Part shown: piece after piece, positions 44,835 through 54,440 of the stretch | How positions within the stretch are numbered: position 1 is the stretch's first letter | Layout of the letters: each line of letters opens with the position of its first letter | From: Streptomyces paradoxus | GTDB lineage: Bacteria; Actinomycetota; Actinomycetes; Streptomycetales; Streptomycetaceae | DNA: 64,000 nt | Direction of reading: 5' to 3' | NCBI RefSeq assembly: GCF_014202475.1 | Contig: NZ_JACHGV010000005.1 | Span: 434,001-498,000, forward strand | Program-made: the position numbers and the translations under genes | Notes under the pieces: generated by a model | The model's input: the letters and a program-made list of their open reading frames with translations, nothing else | Told to the model about the DNA's origin: nothing | The model's database searches: none

Positions 44835-45695
44835 TCAGGAGATCGGGCTGCGCGCGGACTCCACTATGCCGTACCAGGAGCCCTCGATGCGACGGTATAG
44901 ATCGGCGCCCTTCAGGACTTTGACTACCAAGCAGCCTCGATAGGAATCGCCGACGTTCTTGCGGTGTGCCTTCGGGTTATGCCTCTTCAGCGTCGTTTTG
45001 TTAAAGGCGGATCGATCGGCGCCGACGAGGTCGGCCCAGTACCGCTCGGCGCCCACCACGTCGGCCGACTCATGGATCATCACGGTGAACTTGAGGCGCT
45101 CGCGCTCCACTCCGAGCAGGTCGAGCCAGGCCAGGAAGACCTGGATCATGCCGGGGTCGCTGTTGACGAAGCAGACGTTCTCGCGGCGGGCGTACGGCTT
45201 GTCCTTGCCGCCCTCTGCCCAGTACAGGCCGACGCCCAGGAGGAACAGCTCGCGCGGCGACAGTGCGCCGACGGCCTGCTTGGCCGCCGCCTTGGTCTGC
45301 TGTCGCTCCTCGTCCCGCAGGCGCATGGTGGCTTCCCAGCCACGCCTCGCGATCACTGACGCCTCCTCGGGAGTTCGCTTGCGCTCCGGCTTCGGCAGAT
45401 CCCGAACCCACAGCGACACTGAACTCCTCGAACACCCCAGCTCCACCTCGATCTGGTCGTACGTCCAGCCCTGGAGTCGAAGCTCCCTTGCCTTCTCCCG
45501 CAGGTCGTCCTTCGCCCGGGGGCGCTTCGTCCAGGCCGGGGGCGGTTCTCCCTTCACCAGTTGGTTGAGGATGTCGTTGTTGAAGATCTTCAGTTCGTCG
45601 CGGATCTGGCGGAGGCTGAGGCCCTGCCTGCGCAGTGCCACCGCCCTCTCCCGCAGGCCCTCGAAGTCCGCGTACTTGCCAGATGCATGTGTCAT
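44835..45695 (-). CDS. Helix-turn-helix protein with a possible LAGLIDADG-like domain
   Basis: A 286-residue protein. Two helix-turn-helix units are visible, at about 12-47 (L-R-R-Q-G-L-S-L-R-Q-I-R-D-E-L) and 66-99 (L-R-L-Q-G-W-T-Y-D-Q-I-E-V-E-L-G-C-S-R-S). The C-terminal part (about 148-286) contains L-L-G-V-G-L-Y-W-A-E-G-G, similar to the dodecapeptide helix of LAGLIDADG proteins, followed by V-C-F-V-N-S-D-P-G-M-I-Q-V-F-L. Base composition is visibly lower in GC than its neighbours and it starts 23 bp from a tRNA, so it may have been acquired. ATG 45695 or 45701 may be the start. Function is unknown. Confidence 0.8.
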   Translation of the reverse strand: MTHASGKYADFEGLRERAVALRRQGLSLRQIRDELKIFNNDILNQLVKGEPPPAWTKRPRAKDDLREKARELRLQGWTYDQIEVELGCSRSSVSLWVRDLPKPERKRTPEEASVIARRGWEATMRLRDEERQQTKAAAKQAVGALSPRELFLLGVGLYWAEGGKDKPYARRENVCFVNSDPGMIQVFLAWLDLLGVERERLKFTVMIHESADVVGAERYWADLVGADRSAFNKTTLKRHNPKAHRKNVGDSYRGCLVVKVLKGADLYRRIEGSWYGIVESARSPIS

Positions 45696-47186: not shown

Positions 47187-47681
47187 TCAGTTTGTGGTGA
47201 GGCGGGCGGGTCCGGTGCCGGTGATGAGGGTGGCCAGGGCGTGGTCGATGTCGGGGCCGAGGTACCAGTCGCCGGTGTGGTCGAGGGTGTAGGCGCGGCC
47301 GTCGGTGTCGATGGCGAGGAGTGCCTGGCTGTCGGTTTCGGTGCCGAGGGGGCAGACGTCGGTGCCGAGGGCGCGGCCGAGGTCGGCGAGGGTGCGGGCC
47401 ATGTGGAGGCCGTGCAGCGGGTCGAGGTGGAGGGTGGCGGGGGCGACTTGGCGGCCGGGGCCGGTGGGGGTGATGTGGAGTCCGCCGAATTCGGCCCAGG
47501 CTTCGACGGCGGCGGGGAAGACGGTGTGGCGATGGCCTGCGGGTGAGATGTGGTCGCGCAGGGTGTCGGCCCAGATCTCGGCTTGTTTGATGTCCCAGCG
47601 TCCGGGTTGCCAGCCGGCGGCGCGCAGGGCGGCGTCGACGGGTACGGCGAAGCGGGTGGTGGAGGTGCGGTCGGTGTGCAT
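47187..47681 (-). CDS. SUKH-3-type immunity-like protein
   Basis: A 164-residue protein with the SUKH-3 layout: A-L-R-A-A-G-W-Q-P-G-R near the start, then F-P-A-A-V-E-A-W-A-E-F-G-G-L-H-I, and the late Y-L-G-P-D-I-D-H-A-L-A-T-L-I. SUKH proteins neutralise contact-dependent or polymorphic toxins by binding them. It follows the YwqJ-type deaminase gene by 80 bp on the same strand, the classic order of toxin then antidote. ATG 47681 has GAAGGGC upstream. No signal peptide. Confidence 0.8.
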   Translation of the reverse strand: MHTDRTSTTRFAVPVDAALRAAGWQPGRWDIKQAEIWADTLRDHISPAGHRHTVFPAAVEAWAEFGGLHITPTGPGRQVAPATLHLDPLHGLHMARTLADLGRALGTDVCPLGTETDSQALLAIDTDGRAYTLDHTGDWYLGPDIDHALATLITGTGPARLTTN

Positions 47682-47761: not shown

Positions 47762-48364
47762 TCAGCCGTTCTGGGACGCCGGGTCGACTATGCGGACCCC
47801 GAAGTGGGCGCTGAGCGCGGTGCAGGCGCGGCAGGGGGTGGCGAAGCTGCCGTGGAGGGGGTCGCCGTCCTCGCGGATGCGCCGGGTGGTGAGTTTGGCC
47901 TGCTTGAGGGCTTTGCGTGCCTCGCCGTTGGTCATGGGTTTGCGTGCGGCGCGTTTGCTGCGGGCGGTGTCGGCGGCGGCGATGTGGCGGGAGATGAGGA
48001 TGGTTTCGGCACAGCGGCCGGTGAAGCGGTCGCGTTGGGCGCTGGTGAGGGTGTCGAGGAAGTCCTGGACGAGGGGGTGCAGGGCGGGGGGTGTGTCGCC
48101 GCGGGCGGCGGTGCCGGTGAGGGTGGCGCCGCGGACGGAGAGGGCGGCGGCGACGGTGGGGAGGATGCCGTCGCGGCGGTGCCGGAGGGCGGGGGTGTGG
48201 GCCGTTTCGGTGGTGCTCCAGCCGATGCGGGGGTCGCCGCCGCGGGGGTCGGTGGCTCGCGGGTCGCCGGCCAGGGGGCCGGGGTCGCGGCTTGTGCCTC
48301 TGGGGTCGCCGTTTCGTGGGTCGGCGGACCGGCCGGTGTGTGGTCCCGTCTGCGTGGCGTTCAT
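47762..48364 (-). CDS. YwqJ-like cytidine-deaminase-fold protein
   Basis: A 200-residue protein. Residues 1-50 are a low-complexity tail with D-P-R repeats. The rest shows the deaminase zinc site: C118-A-E120 in G-R-C-A-E and P177-C-R-A-C181. This resembles the YwqJ-type nucleic-acid deaminases found as toxin tips. There is no secretion leader, RHS or other delivery domain, so the deaminase would act inside the cell. A SUKH-3 gene follows. ATG 48364 has GGAGGGG upstream. The substrate (DNA, RNA or nucleotide) cannot be read from sequence. Confidence 0.78.
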   Translation of the reverse strand: MNATQTGPHTGRSADPRNGDPRGTSRDPGPLAGDPRATDPRGGDPRIGWSTTETAHTPALRHRRDGILPTVAAALSVRGATLTGTAARGDTPPALHPLVQDFLDTLTSAQRDRFTGRCAETILISRHIAAADTARSKRAARKPMTNGEARKALKQAKLTTRRIREDGDPLHGSFATPCRACTALSAHFGVRIVDPASQNG

Positions 48365-48761
48365 GATCGTCTTCCCCTCCGTGCATCCCCCCGGGGGGCA
48401 CAGACTGCCAAATGCCGTGGCCGGTGCGGAAGCTGGGGCGCGGCGACACGCCCGGAGCGGGGTGTGCCGTCACGGTGGGGTGACGGCTGGTCACGGAAGC
48501 GGAGGGGGTGCCGGCCGGTGCCGGTGACCGGTGTCGTCGTACCGCATAGGCTGTCGGCACCGCGGGCGATGCGGTGATCCGTTCGGGGTTCGATGCAGTG
48601 AACCGGAGGGTGATCCGCGGGGTCGGCGGTTGCAGTGAGGCGCGGTGAAGTGCGCCGAGGTGCAGTGCAGTCGAGGAACAAGACGTGACAGTCGATACGG
48701 GTCGTAGGGCGCCAAGGGTGGTCAATACGGGTCGTACAGAGTGCCGCAGGGGGCAACCGCC
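48365..48761. other. 397-bp divergent control region of the toxin/SUKH island
   Basis: No gene is supported here. The region separates the leftward deaminase/SUKH-3 pair from the rightward nuclease-SUKH operon. It contains three TGCAGTG boxes (48594-48600, 48631-48637, 48661-48667), a TAGGCT box at 48547-48552, and the 16-bp direct repeats at 48691-48736. It is somewhat less GC-rich than the flanking genes. Confidence 0.5.
48691..48736 (+). repeat. 16-bp direct repeats, 30 bp apart, before the nuclease-SUKH operon
   Basis: GTCGATACGGGTCGTA (48691-48706) and GTCAATACGGGTCGTA (48721-48736) differ at one base. Their starts are exactly 30 bp apart, close to three helical turns, so bound proteins would face the same side. 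They end 25 bp before the start codon at 48762. They look like activator or repressor sites. Confidence 0.6.
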
Positions 48762-49766
48762 ATGACGACAGGTCGGCTCGGGCAGCAAGCCGCGCCGCCG
48801 AACGCGGCCTACGCCGGGCAGGTCGTGCATTTCCCGGATCCGGTCCGGGCGGCCCGTCACCCGAGAGGGGTACGGGTCGATGAGCATGGTTACCCCGACT
48901 TCTCGGCTTACGCGCGTGCGGCCGCGGAGATCGCGGAGCCGCCGGAGGGTTTCGGTGTCGACGAGTTGCGGCTGACGGACTACGTGTCGGCGAACACGGC
49001 GTTGTCGGCGTCCGGGCACGAACTGTGGGACACGGTGCCGGCGGTGGCGACGCCGCACGGCTGGACGTGGCACCACGTGGTGGGTTCGCGGCGGCTGGAG
49101 CTGGTTCCGGTCGAGGTGAAGGCGCTGCTGCGGCATCACGGTGGTGTGGCGACGTCGGGTGTGGACCACTCCAAGCGGGGGACGCGGCCGTTGCAGGAGA
49201 CGCGTCCGGCGCACTTCGGGCTGCCGAAGTCGGGTGTGGCGGTGACGGAGTCGCAGGTGCAGGGTGTCGAGGAGGACCTCGGTTACCGGCTGCCGGGTGC
49301 GTACCGGTCGTTCCTGAAGGCGGCGGGCGGTTGCGCGCCGGTGGGTGCCGCGCTGGACGCGGCGCTGGGGCTGCTGGTGGACCAGCCGTTCTTCACGGTG
49401 CGCGACGAGGCCGCGGTCAATGACCTGGTGTACGTCAACAAGTGTCTGCGTGACCATCTGACCAAGGACTATCTGGGGGTCGCCTTCGTCCAGGGCGGGC
49501 TGCTGGCCGTGAAGGTGAAGGGCGAGCGCATCGGGTCCGTGTGGTTCTGCGCGTACGACGACGCGCGGGACGTGGATCCCTCGGTTCCGCCCGCGGAGCG
49601 GGTGGAGCGGCTGCTGCTTCCGTGCGGGGACGACTTCGATGTCTTCCTGTCGCGGCTGGCGGGCAATCCGCCGGAGTTGGAGACGGTGGCGAACCTGATG
49701 GTGGACGGCGGGTTCGCGCGTGTGGTGCCGGTGGGTGCGGTGTCGTCCTCGGCCGTGGGGGAGTGA
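48762..49766 (+). CDS. WHH-type HNH nuclease domain fused to a SUKH-1 (SMI1/KNR4) domain
   Basis: A 334-residue two-part protein. Residues about 30-150 resemble the WHH branch of HNH/endonuclease VII toxin domains: G-Y-P-D-F-S-A-Y-A, then T-W103-H104-H105 and L-V-P-V-E-V-K-A-L-L-R-H125-H126-G-G. Residues about 161-305 are a SMI1/KNR4 (SUKH-1) domain with V-E-E-D-L-G-Y-R-L-P-G-A-Y-R-S-F-L-K-A-A-G-G. Toxin and antidote classes are thus in one chain, with no secretion signal. ATG 48762 follows AGGGGG. The next gene starts 8 bp after its stop, so they form an operon. Confidence 0.8.
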   Translation: MTTGRLGQQAAPPNAAYAGQVVHFPDPVRAARHPRGVRVDEHGYPDFSAYARAAAEIAEPPEGFGVDELRLTDYVSANTALSASGHELWDTVPAVATPHGWTWHHVVGSRRLELVPVEVKALLRHHGGVATSGVDHSKRGTRPLQETRPAHFGLPKSGVAVTESQVQGVEEDLGYRLPGAYRSFLKAAGGCAPVGAALDAALGLLVDQPFFTVRDEAAVNDLVYVNKCLRDHLTKDYLGVAFVQGGLLAVKVKGERIGSVWFCAYDDARDVDPSVPPAERVERLLLPCGDDFDVFLSRLAGNPPELETVANLMVDGGFARVVPVGAVSSSAVGE

Positions 49767-49774
49767 GGTCGGCG

Positions 49775-52700
49775 ATGGTGACCTTCGCGCAGGCGCAGGA
49801 GCGCGCGGAAGAGTGGATCAACGGGGATCTCCCGGCGTACCAGCATCGTGAGGTGCGGGTGCGGGAGTTCGACCTGGGGTTCGTGGTGTGGGCCGAGGAC
49901 CGGTCGGACGGGCCGCGGTCGGACGGTGGTGCGCAGCGGCTGGTGATCGCGCGGGACAGCGGTGAGGCGACGTTGTGGCCCGGGCTGCCGGTGGGTGAGG
50001 TGATCCGCCGGTACGAGGAGGAGTACGGCCGTCCGGACGAGGCGGAGGAGCCGGCACCGGCTGCGCCTGCGGCGCGGGTGGATCTGAACCAGACGTCGTT
50101 CCTGCTGACTCCGCCGGAGTGGTTGCAGGATGCGGCGGACAAGCTGGGGATTCCGGATCGGCGGGGTGCGGGGTCCGGTGAGACGGGTTCGGCTCCTGCG
50201 GCCTCTTCGGCTTCTGCGGCCCCTTCGGGTCCTGCGGTTGCTGCCGATGGTCCGGTGTCTGCCGGTGGGGCGGCTTCCGGTGCCGCTTCCGGTGCCTCGG
50301 CTGCGGGCGCGGCGACTCCCGCCCAGGGGGCGCCCGTCGCGCCGGGGAGTGGTACGGCGTGGCCGGCCGCCGGGGGGAGTGACCCGGAGGAGGGCGAGGC
50401 CTCGGCCACCGGTCCGGGTGCTTCCGCCGCGCCGGGTGTGCCCGACGGGGCGACGCCGTGGGCCGGTACGGACACCAACGGCGATGCCGGTGACGACCGT
50501 TCGGTACCGCTGCCGGCGACGGTCTTCGCGCCGCCGCTGAGCGAGACCGACGGTGCCACGCCGCCGCCGTCGACGACACCCGATGCCCATACGGCCCTGA
50601 TGTCGGGCGGCAGTCAGCTTCCGCCGACCGCGGTGACGCCGGCGGTGGACGGTCCGAGCGCCCCGGGCTCCGGCCCCGCGGGCGGGCCGGGGTACGGCTA
50701 CCCCTCGGGTCCGGCCACCGCGCCCGGTGTGCCGGGGACGCCGCCCGGCGGGGTGCCGCAGGGCAGTACGCCTCCGCCTGTGCCGGGTGGGCAGCCGTAC
50801 GGCTATCCGCAGGGGGCGGGTGGCGGGGCTGCAGGTCCCGCCGGCCCGGCCGGTCCTGCCGGTCCCGTGGGTGGTGCGCCGCAGCCGCCTGCCGGTCCGG
50901 GTGCGCCGGAGCGGCCGCTCGCGCCCAACGCCGGGGACATCGCCGACGCCGCGACCAGCAAGGCGGCTCCGCCGCCGGGCCGTGGGCGGAGCGCGGGTCC
51001 GGCCACACCGCCTCCACCGGGTGCTCCGGGTGCGCCGGGTGTGCCGGGTGCACGGCCGGGCAGTACGCCCCCGCCGTCGGGGCCCGGGGCTCCGGGGACT
51101 CCGGCGGGCGGTTATGTGCCCACGCAGCTGGTGTCGGCGCTCGGTCCTGACGGGCCTGGTGCTCCGGGAGGGCCCGGCTCCGGAGGGCCCGGTGCGCCCG
51201 GTGGCCCGGGGAATTCCGCGGGGGCCGGGTCTCCGCAGGGTCCGGGTGCGCCGCAGCCGCCTGGTCCCCCCGGTGCGCCGCAGCCGCCCGGTGCCCCTGG
51301 TGGTACGCCTCCTGGGGGTGTCCACCATGCCGCCACGATGTTCGCCGACCCCGGCCGGATGGGCCCGGGCGCGCCTCAGCCTCCGCAGCCGCCGGGGCCT
51401 CCGGGAGCGCCCGGTGCTCCCCATCCGCCCGGTGCTCCGAACCCGCCTGGTGCGCCGCAGCCGCCCGGCGCCCCGGGGGCTCCTGGTGCCCCGGGTGTTC
51501 CTGGCGGCCCGGGTCCCGTGCATCACGCGGAGACCATGCTGGCCACGCCTCCGGCGGGCGGCCCCGGCGTGCCTCCGCCGCCGCAGGCCCCCGGCGCGCC
51601 TCCCGCTGCCCCGGGAGCGCCCGGAGCTCCGGGCGCGCCTGGCGTGCCTGGTGGGCCGCCGCCCGTGCCGCACGGCGGGGCGCCGGGTGCGGTGCCTCCG
51701 GGTATGCCGCCCGGTGCGATCCCGCCGGGTGCGATGCCGCCGCCCGGCCAGCCCGCTCCCGGGCAGCCGCCGGCGTACGGCTATCCGCAGCAGCCCACCG
51801 GGCAGCCGACCGTCGGCCCCGGCTACCAGGCCGTGCTGCGCTACCGCGCGCAGGACGGTTCCGAGCAGCAGCTGATCCGGCGTTCGGCGCCGGGCATGCC
51901 GCACCCGGAGTGGCAGATCTTCCACGAGCTGCGGGCCATGAACGTGCCCCCGGACCAGGTGCTGGAGCTGCACACCGAGCTGGAGTCGTGCGAGCTGCCG
52001 GGCGCGTACTGCGCGCGGATGATCCGGGAGCAGTGGCCGCAGGCCCGCATCACGAGCATCGCCCCGTACGGCACCGACCACGCGAGCCGGCAGCAGGGCA
52101 TGCAGCAGCTGCTGGCCCACCAGGGCGAGTTGCACCAGGTGGCGGACGGCCCGGCGCGGCCGGCTCCGGTGCGTGCGCCGCTGCCGCCGGTGCAGCCGGC
52201 GCCGCCGATCCCGCCGGAGGCCATCGGGCAGGAGCTGGGGGCCGCGTTCGGGCCGGGGGTGTTCCGGTTCGAGCAGGCCGCCGTGTCGCGGCAGGGTGTG
52301 CCCCCGGTGGTGGCGCACACGCTGGTGGCGGCCGGACTGCCGATGGACATGGGCCCGTTCTTCTGGGCGCAGGCCCAGCCGGGGCGGCCCGTTCCGACGC
52401 TGGCGGAGCTGGCGGCCGAGCGCGGTGTGCAGCCGGCCGCGGACGCTGGTTCCTACCTGGTGATGGGCAGCGACTTCGGCAAGGCGATCTGCGTGCAGTA
52501 CGGCACGGCGAACATCGTCGCCGTGCCGGTGGAGGCCGGGCCGGGCGGGGCGCCCGTACCGCCGCAGTTCGTGAACACCGGGCTGCCGGAGTTCGCCCGC
52601 TGCCTGGCGCTGCTCGGGCGGATGTGGCGGCTGCGGTTCGGGCTGAACCAGGAGCAGGCGGGACGCTGGACCGTCGACTTCCAGGCCCAGCTGGCCGCGC

Positions 52701-52777
52701 TCGATCCGGCGGCGCTGGGCTCGCCGGAGAGCTGGTGGTCGGTGCTGCTGGAGGAGATGTGGGACGGACTGCTGTGA
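49775..52777 (+). CDS. Large Imm35-like/deaminase-like/SUKH-4 protein with a Pro-Gly linker
   Basis: A 1000-residue soluble protein in four parts. Residues 1-85 resemble the Imm35/YrhB-type immunity fold (W-I-N-G-D, F-V-V-W, G-V-I-R-R-Y-E-E-E-Y type strands). About 130-690 is Pro/Gly/Ala-rich and in part collagen-like, with two H-H-A-x-T-M motifs and Y-G-Y-P-Q segments. About 690-790 resembles a nucleotide deaminase of the XOO_2897 type, with H710-P-E712 and C739-x6-C746. About 815-990 resembles SUKH-4. ATG 49775 has GAGG upstream and sits 8 bp after the nuclease-SUKH gene. A strong terminator follows. The function is unknown. Confidence 0.78.
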   Translation: MVTFAQAQERAEEWINGDLPAYQHREVRVREFDLGFVVWAEDRSDGPRSDGGAQRLVIARDSGEATLWPGLPVGEVIRRYEEEYGRPDEAEEPAPAAPAARVDLNQTSFLLTPPEWLQDAADKLGIPDRRGAGSGETGSAPAASSASAAPSGPAVAADGPVSAGGAASGAASGASAAGAATPAQGAPVAPGSGTAWPAAGGSDPEEGEASATGPGASAAPGVPDGATPWAGTDTNGDAGDDRSVPLPATVFAPPLSETDGATPPPSTTPDAHTALMSGGSQLPPTAVTPAVDGPSAPGSGPAGGPGYGYPSGPATAPGVPGTPPGGVPQGSTPPPVPGGQPYGYPQGAGGGAAGPAGPAGPAGPVGGAPQPPAGPGAPERPLAPNAGDIADAATSKAAPPPGRGRSAGPATPPPPGAPGAPGVPGARPGSTPPPSGPGAPGTPAGGYVPTQLVSALGPDGPGAPGGPGSGGPGAPGGPGNSAGAGSPQGPGAPQPPGPPGAPQPPGAPGGTPPGGVHHAATMFADPGRMGPGAPQPPQPPGPPGAPGAPHPPGAPNPPGAPQPPGAPGAPGAPGVPGGPGPVHHAETMLATPPAGGPGVPPPPQAPGAPPAAPGAPGAPGAPGVPGGPPPVPHGGAPGAVPPGMPPGAIPPGAMPPPGQPAPGQPPAYGYPQQPTGQPTVGPGYQAVLRYRAQDGSEQQLIRRSAPGMPHPEWQIFHELRAMNVPPDQVLELHTELESCELPGAYCARMIREQWPQARITSIAPYGTDHASRQQGMQQLLAHQGELHQVADGPARPAPVRAPLPPVQPAPPIPPEAIGQELGAAFGPGVFRFEQAAVSRQGVPPVVAHTLVAAGLPMDMGPFFWAQAQPGRPVPTLAELAAERGVQPAADAGSYLVMGSDFGKAICVQYGTANIVAVPVEAGPGGAPVPPQFVNTGLPEFARCLALLGRMWRLRFGLNQEQAGRWTVDFQAQLAALDPAALGSPESWWSVLLEEMWDGLL

Positions 52778-52840: not shown

Positions 52841-52947
52841 TTCTCATGCCCGCGCCGAAAAATTCTTCGCTCGGGCTGTCACACCTTCCTCCGCCGCTCC
52901 GTCAGTGCAGTGACAGCGACGCACCGCCGACACAGGAGGCAGAGATC

Positions 52948-53409
52948 ATGCAGGCACGGATGACGAACCCGGCGTACGTCCTTTCCGGCGCGATGAAGGG
53001 CATCGGCACCCTCTTCCAGGCGATCGGGGAGGGCGGTCTGGCGCAGGACGTGGCGGAGATGGCCGGGCTGCGCGCCAGCCAGATCAACGGCTGCGGTGCC
53101 TGCGTGCACGGGCACGTCGCCAACCTCCGCAAGGCCGGGGTGAGCGAGGAGCGCATCGCGGCCGTCGCCGCCTGGCGGCACGCGCCCTTCTTCTCGGACG
53201 CCGAGCGCGCGGCCCTGAAGCTGACGGAGGCGATGACACGGCTTTCCGACCTCTCGGGGGAGTCGGTGCCGGACGCGCTGTGGGACGAGGTGGCCGACCA
53301 CTTCGACGAGAAGGAACTCTCCGCGCTGATCCTCACCGTCTCGGTCACCAACATGTTCAACCGCATCAACACGACCATCCAGGAGCCCGCGGGCACCAAC
53401 TGGGGCTGA
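52948..53409 (+). CDS. AhpD-like alkylhydroperoxidase (carboxymuconolactone decarboxylase family)
   Basis: A 153-residue AhpD-family protein. The redox motif C49-G-A-C52-V-H-G-H56 within S-Q-I-N-G-C-G-A-C is intact, and the helix bundle continues to V-S-V-T-N-M-F-N-R-I-N-T-T. Such proteins reduce peroxides, usually with a thiol partner. ATG 52948 has AGGAGG 9 nt upstream. It has its own transcription unit after a strong terminator. No regulator is adjacent. Confidence 0.9.
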   Translation: MQARMTNPAYVLSGAMKGIGTLFQAIGEGGLAQDVAEMAGLRASQINGCGACVHGHVANLRKAGVSEERIAAVAAWRHAPFFSDAERAALKLTEAMTRLSDLSGESVPDALWDEVADHFDEKELSALILTVSVTNMFNRINTTIQEPAGTNWG

Positions 53410-53552
53410 GGCGGCCGCCGGTCCGGCCACGAGGCCCTGACCCCTGAGCGGAGTGTCGCGTTATGAACACTTCCGTCTGATCCACCAAGATGTGCGCTGA
53501 ATCATCCCATTTCTGGCGCGACTTCACATCGGTGTGGTGGAGAGGGGTCCGG

Positions 53553-54440
53553 ATGAGCGGCGCGACGGTGTCACCGCACGGCTTCACGGCCGTGCGGGGG
53601 CGCGGCTACCGTCCCGAGCAGGTCGACGAGTACGCCGAGGCCCTCTCCGCGGACCGGGACGCGGCCTGGGAGAGAGCCGCCCGCCTGACGGTGCTCGCCC
53701 GGCGCATGGACGAAGAACTGGCGCGGCTGCGCGAGGCCGTGGCCCGGCTGGCCCCGCAGAACTACGAGACGCTCGGCGACCGGGCGCGGCGCCTCTTCGA
53801 ACTCGGCGAGCAGGAGGCCGCGGCCGTCCGGGAGGGGGCGCGGGACGAGGCGCGCCAACTGGTGGACGGGGCGCGGGCGTCCGCGGCAGGCGTGCGCGAG
53901 TCCGCACGGGCGCATGCCGAGGCCGTACGCGCCGACGCCGACGAACGTGCCCGGCAGCGGCTGCTCGCCGCGCACGCCGAGGCCGACGAGATCCTGGGCG
54001 CGGCACGGCGTGAGGAGGGGGAGCTTCGGGGCGAGGCAGTGGCCGCTTTGCGGGAGATGCGGCAGCGCACCTCCGGGATGCTGGCCGAGCAGGAGAGGGA
54101 ACGCGGCGAGCGGTGGGCGGAGACGGAGCGTGAGGAGGCCGCCCGCGAGGCGGCGTCCGACGCCCACCACGACGAGGCGGTGACGCGCGCCGAGGCCGTG
54201 CTGGCCGAGGCCGAGCAGGCCTTCGCCGACGCCGGGGACTCCGCCCGCGACCTGGAGGAAGAGGCCCAAGCGCATGCCGCGGAACTGGTCGCCCGGGCCC
54301 GGGAGCACGCGGAGGCCGTGGAGGCGGAGACGGGCCGGCTCCTGCGCGTGCACGCCGAGCAGCGGGACGACGCCCTCGCCCACATCGCCCGCGTCCACAC
54401 CAGCCTGACGGCGTGGGCGGGACAGTCGACGGCGGAGTGA
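53553..54440 (+). CDS. Coiled-coil protein with a DivIVA-like N-terminus
   Basis: A 295-residue cytoplasmic protein. The start F-T-A-V-R-G-R-G-Y-R-P-E-Q-V-D-E-Y-A-E-A-L resembles the DivIVA membrane-binding segment. From about residue 40 to 285 it is a nearly continuous Ala/Glu/Arg-rich coiled coil. Streptomyces has several such cytoskeletal-like proteins (the Scy/FilP type), often named cellulose-binding protein in databases. A role in hyphal tip organisation or as a filament-forming protein is plausible but not shown. ATG 53553 follows GAGAGGGG. Confidence 0.85.
   Translation: MSGATVSPHGFTAVRGRGYRPEQVDEYAEALSADRDAAWERAARLTVLARRMDEELARLREAVARLAPQNYETLGDRARRLFELGEQEAAAVREGARDEARQLVDGARASAAGVRESARAHAEAVRADADERARQRLLAAHAEADEILGAARREEGELRGEAVAALREMRQRTSGMLAEQERERGERWAETEREEAAREAASDAHHDEAVTRAEAVLAEAEQAFADAGDSARDLEEEAQAHAAELVARAREHAEAVEAETGRLLRVHAEQRDDALAHIARVHTSLTAWAGQSTAE

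Follow-up and report, generated by a model that had tools for sequence, protein, structure and literature searches.

What is a gene that joins a deaminase-like domain to an immunity domain doing in the chromosome of Streptomyces paradoxus, and does it still serve as a weapon there? Deaminase toxins and SUKH immunity proteins have been known as weapons with a patchy distribution, and the Streptomycetaceae are famed for their antibiotics and multicellular growth. The gene lies in a stretch of 64,000 nt (assembly GCF_014202475.1, contig NZ_JACHGV010000005.1, positions 434,001-498,000, forward strand), which we call the window and in which positions are counted from its first letter. An earlier note on this DNA had described at 49775-52777 a protein made of an Imm35-like head, a collagen-like linker, a deaminase-like domain and a SUKH-4 end.

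Organisation of the protein

Translation of the open reading frame at 49775-52777 (+), which starts 8 nt past the stop codon of the upstream gene, gave 1000 aa followed by a stop. The protein begins with a head of ~92 aa, continues with a Pro/Gly/Ala tether of 583 aa and ends with a PF14440 deaminase and a SUKH-4 domain. The frame and its multi-part layout were therefore as described before, with H710-P-E712, C739-x6-C746 and two HHA[AE]TM motifs in the expected places. The main features are the following.

49775..50050, +, head (aa 1-92), alpha-beta4-alpha, distantly Imm35-like (AlphaFold pLDDT 73, H-E-E-E-E-H)
50051..51802, +, Pro/Gly/Ala-rich tether (aa 93-676), 68% GPA, of variable length among orthologues
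51815..52117, +, XOO_2897-like deaminase PF14440 (aa 681-781), Pfam E 2.2e-36, with deaminase fold matches
51902..51910, +, H710-P-E712, His as predicted zinc ligand and Glu as predicted catalytic residue, unchanged in the 40 diverse and 80 close orthologues
51989..52012, +, C739-x6-C746, Cys pair predicted to bind zinc, unchanged in these orthologues and lost in 4/7 short paralogues
52229..52756, +, SUKH-4 immunity domain PF14435 (aa 819-994), Pfam E 7.1e-47

Long antisense open reading frames over the linker (49469-52318, -) were taken as GC-rich artefacts, because the plus frame holds the conserved domains. No hydrophobic stretch of signal-peptide or transmembrane strength was found in the 1000-aa protein, and a profile search detected in it no N-terminal trafficking domain, no WXG/LXG domain and no repeat-delivery domain. 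The dN/dS of the gene had a median of 0.35 (NG86); as third positions are saturated with GC, we give this value little weight.

The deaminase and SUKH-4 domains

The proposed deaminase-like domain was borne out by sequence profile, active site and fold. PF14440 was matched over its full length (profile positions 1-100 of 101) with 124.5 bits against a cut-off of 27. All four zinc-site residues were invariant in the 40 diverse orthologues, and H-x-E-x26-C-x6-C was kept in 80/80 close ones, thus in 120/120 altogether; loss of H710 or E712 in close orthologues, which would have spoken against a deaminase, was not seen.

In the case of the fold, an AlphaFold model of the two domains was built from close orthologues. 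Its confidence was low overall (pLDDT 53) and reached ~72-84 over model residues 11-60, in the deaminase core. This core runs strand-strand-helix(HxE)-strand-helix(after the first Cys)-strand-helix, i.e. beta-beta-alpha-beta-alpha-beta-alpha. The top Foldseek matches were mostly deaminases (APOBEC3, blasticidin S deaminase, DddA), none of them below E 0.001. Among re-aligned solved structures the best 50 were all deaminases, with middling Z of 4.9-6.8 and 2.4-4.4 Å over 67-103 residues, and all 50 chains map to model residues 2-114. The fold prediction asked for by the earlier note thus returned a deaminase core, and a sequence search of solved structures returned no relative.

The wide C-x6-C spacing had been regarded as a departure from the usual pattern. 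It is not odd, because all intact SUKH-4-linked relatives share it, among them the short paralogues with an intact site and the reversed fusions described below; it is the normal spacing among SUKH-4-linked Streptomyces members of the PF14440 family. Aligned plasmid and chromosomal PF14440 toxins have C-x5-C.

At the C-terminal end, PF14435 scored 160 bits against a cut-off of 25.5 and was covered from profile position 4 to 179 of 179, so that the SUKH-4 assignment stands on a full profile.

The head domain

The head is 54-85% identical in 21 aligned orthologues. Any likeness to Imm35 would be more distant than had been claimed. The Imm35 profile (PF15567) gave no match at E < 10 for 22 heads, nor for four paralogue heads, and comparison of the head model with the PDB gave no convincing match; firm membership of Imm35 was therefore rejected. 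What remains of the claim is a possible distant resemblance: hhalign of the head against genuine Imm35 gave a probability of 11% with the core heads alone and of 79% once the paralogue heads were added. We call the head Imm35-like in this sense of resemblance only.

The tether and its motifs

The tether consists of 27% P, 22% G and 19% A. Its length ranges from 269 to 620 aa in the 40 proteins with a detected head, while the ends persist: head, deaminase and SUKH-4 segments are all retained in the fetched orthologues, as an alignment had been expected to reveal. The likeness to collagen turned out to be one of composition, the longest G-x-y run being 6 triplets (block-shuffle P = 0.06). A collagen triple helix was rejected, as there is no long uninterrupted G-x-y repeat and the runs span 2-10 triplets, depending on the orthologue. 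The G-x-y pattern itself is not conserved in the tether, and its appearance is due to short tandem DNA repeats.

Several short motifs stand out within the tether.

50078..50128, +, tether-start motif VDLNQTSFLLTPPEWLQ (aa 102-118), TSFL[LI] in 40/40 orthologues
50513..50536, +, PATVFAPP (aa 247-254), kept in many sampled genera
51320..51355, +, VHHAATMFADPG (aa 516-527), [AE]T[MV][LF][AS].P family
51518..51553, +, VHHAETMLATPP (aa 582-593), [AE]T[MV][LF][AS].P family

The repeated H-H-A-x-T-M motifs, which had been noticed and left unexplained, are real (HH at aa 517-518 and 583-584) and belong to a larger series than was noted, with VDLNQTSFLLTPPEWL (TSFL[LI] in 40/40 orthologues) and PATVFAPP as further members of a T-x-[FL] series. 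In the 40 linkers [AE]T[MV][LF][AS].P occurs 82 times, against 0.04 expected from shuffling; the strict form is absent from ten orthologues, some of which carry ATQLAP-like variants. Searched for across the genome, the linker motif turned up at just three other places in the DNA, and no Pro-rich linker was among them. Judged by its pattern, the series looks like repeated docking sites. A literature search for an FHA/phospho-threonine reading of the motif found no paper.

Overall, the earlier description held for the deaminase, for SUKH-4 and for the variable length of the linker, and it had to be given up for collagen and for the unusual C-x6-C.

Distribution and genomic neighbourhood

Two observations go beyond the earlier note: the fusion is a core gene, and its neighbours are toxin/immunity modules as well. 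PF14440 was found in 245 of 249 Streptomycetaceae genomes. The match was strong (about E 1e-28 or better) in 240 and only weak in the other five; four genomes had none. In the genera g2 and g5 no close orthologue was found, also when the whole C-terminal part was used for the search. Outside the Streptomycetaceae, 296 genomes of the phylum gave a single match, below the cut-off. Our orthologue set drew on 14 genera and comprised 41 proteins, the window protein and those of 40 loci, with identities to the window protein of 59-100% for the deaminase and 60-100% for SUKH-4; the head was detected in all except L070. The gene is thus a near-universal core gene of the Streptomycetaceae at one fixed chromosomal place. 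A plasmid or phage origin of a close orthologue was considered and rejected: the sole near match to plasmid DNA covered 164 bases at the CMD gene downstream, Streptomyces plasmids hold only deaminase relatives of 31-36% identity, and no deaminase relatives were found in phages.

Three neighbouring genes of the toxin/immunity kind precede it.

47187..47681, -, SUKH-3 immunity protein (PF14433, E 7e-60), 36/40 loci
47762..48364, -, stand-alone YwqJ deaminase (CAE ... PCRAC; PF14431, E 4e-27), 39/40 loci, on the opposite strand
48741..49766, +, WHH nuclease-like domain fused to SUKH-1 (SMI1/KNR4; PF14414 4e-14, PF09346 4e-11)

The WHH-SUKH-1 gene lies upstream on the same strand in 40/40 loci, and the YwqJ/SUKH-3 pair is divergent and lies upstream of it. 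The YwqJ neighbour retained C-x-E and C-x2-C in the 39 examined loci; three of the four loci that miss SUKH-3 do so at the end of a fetched stretch or contig. Counting the deaminase-SUKH-4 gene, one core site therefore holds three domains of toxin type, each with a SUKH partner from a different family.

Further genes were seen around this site. A DivIVA-like coiled-coil gene (53490-54440, +) is a constant downstream neighbour (39/40 loci). Between it and the core deaminase gene, an AhpD/CMD-type gene (52846-53409, +) has a counterpart only in L050 among the 40 loci. A reading frame at 44835-45560 (-) with a weak helix-turn-helix match adjoins glmU and is present in 11/40 stretches.

In the case of the WHH partner, PF14414 scored 52.4 bits against a cut-off of 25.1 and the WHH motif is invariant in 41/41. 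However, LH...RHTGG of the toxins is replaced by VK..LRHHGG, and the first downstream His is Lys in 41/41 ([LV]H....H of most of these toxins to VK....H). This His is present in the toxins of Burkholderia, Paraburkholderia and g5, and the Pukyongiella toxin differs there too. The general HNH metal-site scheme is the basis for reading the lost His as a probable metal ligand; by this scheme, the WHH domain of the partner is probably an inert nuclease. As at least one fused toxin domain is thus probably inert, the deaminase, too, might be kept for binding and not for catalysis.

Proposed origin of the fusion, and its relatives

The partner gene appears to have undergone a parallel fusion, with separate genes in proteobacteria and one reading frame here: in Burkholderia, Paraburkholderia and Pukyongiella, SMI1/KNR4 is encoded by a gene of its own that comes after the WHH toxin gene. 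In genus g5 (L201, L203), a WHH reading frame is followed by a SUKH-1-like reading frame and then by a WHH-SUKH-1 fusion. This arrangement is likely a record of the fusion step and fits a toxin-immunity pair as the source of WHH-SUKH-1.

Two groups of relatives combine the domains differently. Short paralogues of ~440 aa in Streptomycetaceae (L072-L078) have head, deaminase and SUKH-4 in the same order as the core protein. Unlike it, they are sporadic and have no tether, so that the head abuts the deaminase. Several lie beside NTPase-like and WXG-like genes, as read from their sequence, and in 4/7 the active site is broken. The reversed SUKH-4-deaminase proteins (~290 aa) share both domains with the core protein and have HPEE and C-x6-C intact, but show the opposite order and lack head and tether; they are annotated as ‘nucleic acid/nucleotide deaminase domain-containing’ or ‘SUKH-4 family immunity protein’.

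The four paralogues with broken zinc sites are L075, L076, L077 and L078, several of them near WXG-like genes; they could possibly be pseudo-enzyme immunity proteins. Their broken sites mean that the fold can persist without its catalytic residues. That HxE/C-C is nevertheless kept in 120 orthologues therefore argues for selected zinc binding or catalysis, and points to a retained, predicted zinc chemistry of the core deaminase.

In a deaminase tree rooted on toxins, the core set (support 0.89) and the short paralogues (0.88) came out as separate clades. The tether was therefore either inserted in the core line or lost in the short line. We favour insertion, because the tether is the variable part.

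On Streptomyces plasmids, a set of four genes was observed: a SUKH-4-deaminase fusion, a P-loop NTPase-like gene (with an AAA-type Pfam match in L217 and annotated as WD40 in L216), a WXG-type deaminase toxin and a SUKH-4 immunity gene.

L215, 5464-10192, plasmid four-gene set
L216, 5494-10549, plasmid four-gene set
L217, 5437-10188, plasmid four-gene set

The WXG-type toxin with its separate downstream SUKH-4 gene represents the unfused state of the core fusion.

Proposed function

Our tentative answer, to which we give slightly less than an even chance, is that the gene is a domesticated toxin-immunity fusion, predicted to encode an intracellular zinc deaminase restrained by SUKH-4. Architecture, fold, the invariant active site, the tether motifs, the near-universal presence in the family and the constant neighbours have been shown above; within this explanation we infer catalysis, inhibition in cis, a partner, a trigger and a substrate. 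In polymorphic toxin loci the toxin gene as a rule precedes the immunity gene (PMC3482391), and fusion of such a pair would therefore yield deaminase-SUKH-4. Adjacent deaminase-toxin and SUKH-4 immunity genes in this order would have become one reading frame behind an Imm35-like head, with a disordered Pro/Gly/Ala tether and its repeated T-x-[LF]-A motifs between head and deaminase, and the gene would have been fixed on the chromosome in the ancestor of most Streptomycetaceae. The protein would stay inside the cell, where SUKH-4 would bind and restrain the zinc deaminase in cis, as would follow from the supposed role of SUKH domains. A partner may be docked at the tether motifs, possibly via phospho-threonine, and a signal such as infection, damage or a developmental cue would release the deaminase, with nucleic acid or nucleotides as its targets.

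The main rival is an immunity or decoy role, which we consider somewhat unlikely. Here the protein would use SUKH-4, its Imm35-like head and its toxin-like domain together to bind and neutralise incoming deaminase toxins of kin, the deaminase being a mimic of toxin or target, and the WHH-SUKH-1 partner would neutralise WHH toxins likewise. SUKH and Imm35 are indeed immunity families, and polyimmunity proteins have been described along with deaminase toxin clades and SUKH pairing (PMC3482391). The dead deaminase sites of some short paralogues fit such a role, as do the reversed SUKH-4-deaminase fusions that adjoin WXG-type deaminase toxins, and the rival is strengthened because the WHH partner, with its lost ligand, looks inert. 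However, the immunity genes of polymorphic toxin systems are usually patchy and fast-evolving, whereas the core gene is near-universal and kept in place. A pure decoy would also not need the intact HxE/C-C site that is invariant here, and the tether motifs would be left unexplained.

Returning to the domesticated fusion, a wider proposal, which we regard as unlikely, is that the three-part core site is a set of domesticated modules in which the tethered deaminase would be latent, self-restrained and released by a signal, leading to programmed death, phage abortion or nucleic-acid editing in multicellular development.

Quite unlikely is a regulatory or structural scaffold in which the domains would be binding modules only and the tether a platform for multivalent docking, with a possible tie to the polar-growth machinery via the DivIVA-like gene. 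The downstream presence of this gene in 39/40 loci, the repeated tether motifs and the lost WHH ligand agree with a scaffold, but the synteny may be hitch-hiking and the catalytic residues of the deaminase are invariant. Export as a polymorphic toxin of the type VII (WXG) kind is very improbable in spite of relatives near WXG-type genes, since WXG/LXG, signal and repeat-delivery domains are missing, the toxin domain is internal with its own immunity domain behind it, and the sequence is conserved and not polymorphic.

As a domesticated fusion, the gene suggests a bacterial weapon turned into a resident gene with a household or defence role. Fused and near-universal toxin/immunity genes in the Streptomycetaceae offer a testable case of conflict genes recruited to a resident function, and they point to a naturally self-inhibited bacterial deaminase, as predicted here, which would be useful in the search for new base-editing enzymes.

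Comparison with known systems

A literature search for SUKH-4 with Streptomyces gave no match, and no paper on this locus was found in a search of limited reach, with the 2011 work on the deaminase and SUKH families outside it.

DddA with its immunity protein (PDB 6u08), among the matches of the fold search, likewise combines a deaminase fold with an immunity partner. It differs in being a T6SS effector of another deaminase toxin family with a different immunity protein. We take DddA to belong to the SCP1.201 family. The ComI nuclease and its inhibitor ComJ of Bacillus, proposed as a domesticated toxin-immunity pair, provide a precedent for such a pair turned to a household role (PMC3482391); unlike the core protein, ComI is a nuclease and the pair consists of two genes without fusion.

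Also among the closest systems are the WXG-type XOO_2897-like toxins (PF14440) with a separate SUKH-4. The core protein shares with them the deaminase family, HxE and the Cys pair, the immunity family and the toxin-then-immunity order, but it is one fused chain without a trafficking domain, with a long tether and a head, encoded by a fixed core gene. In the layout of polymorphic toxins, trafficking is N-terminal and the toxin tip C-terminal; here the deaminase is internal and SUKH-4 C-terminal. Instead of a variable toxin tip with a separate immunity gene, the checked orthologues of the family have one architecture with the immunity domain fused. Altogether, known domains occur here in a fused, tethered and family-wide fixed form that lacks the defining features of a polymorphic toxin.
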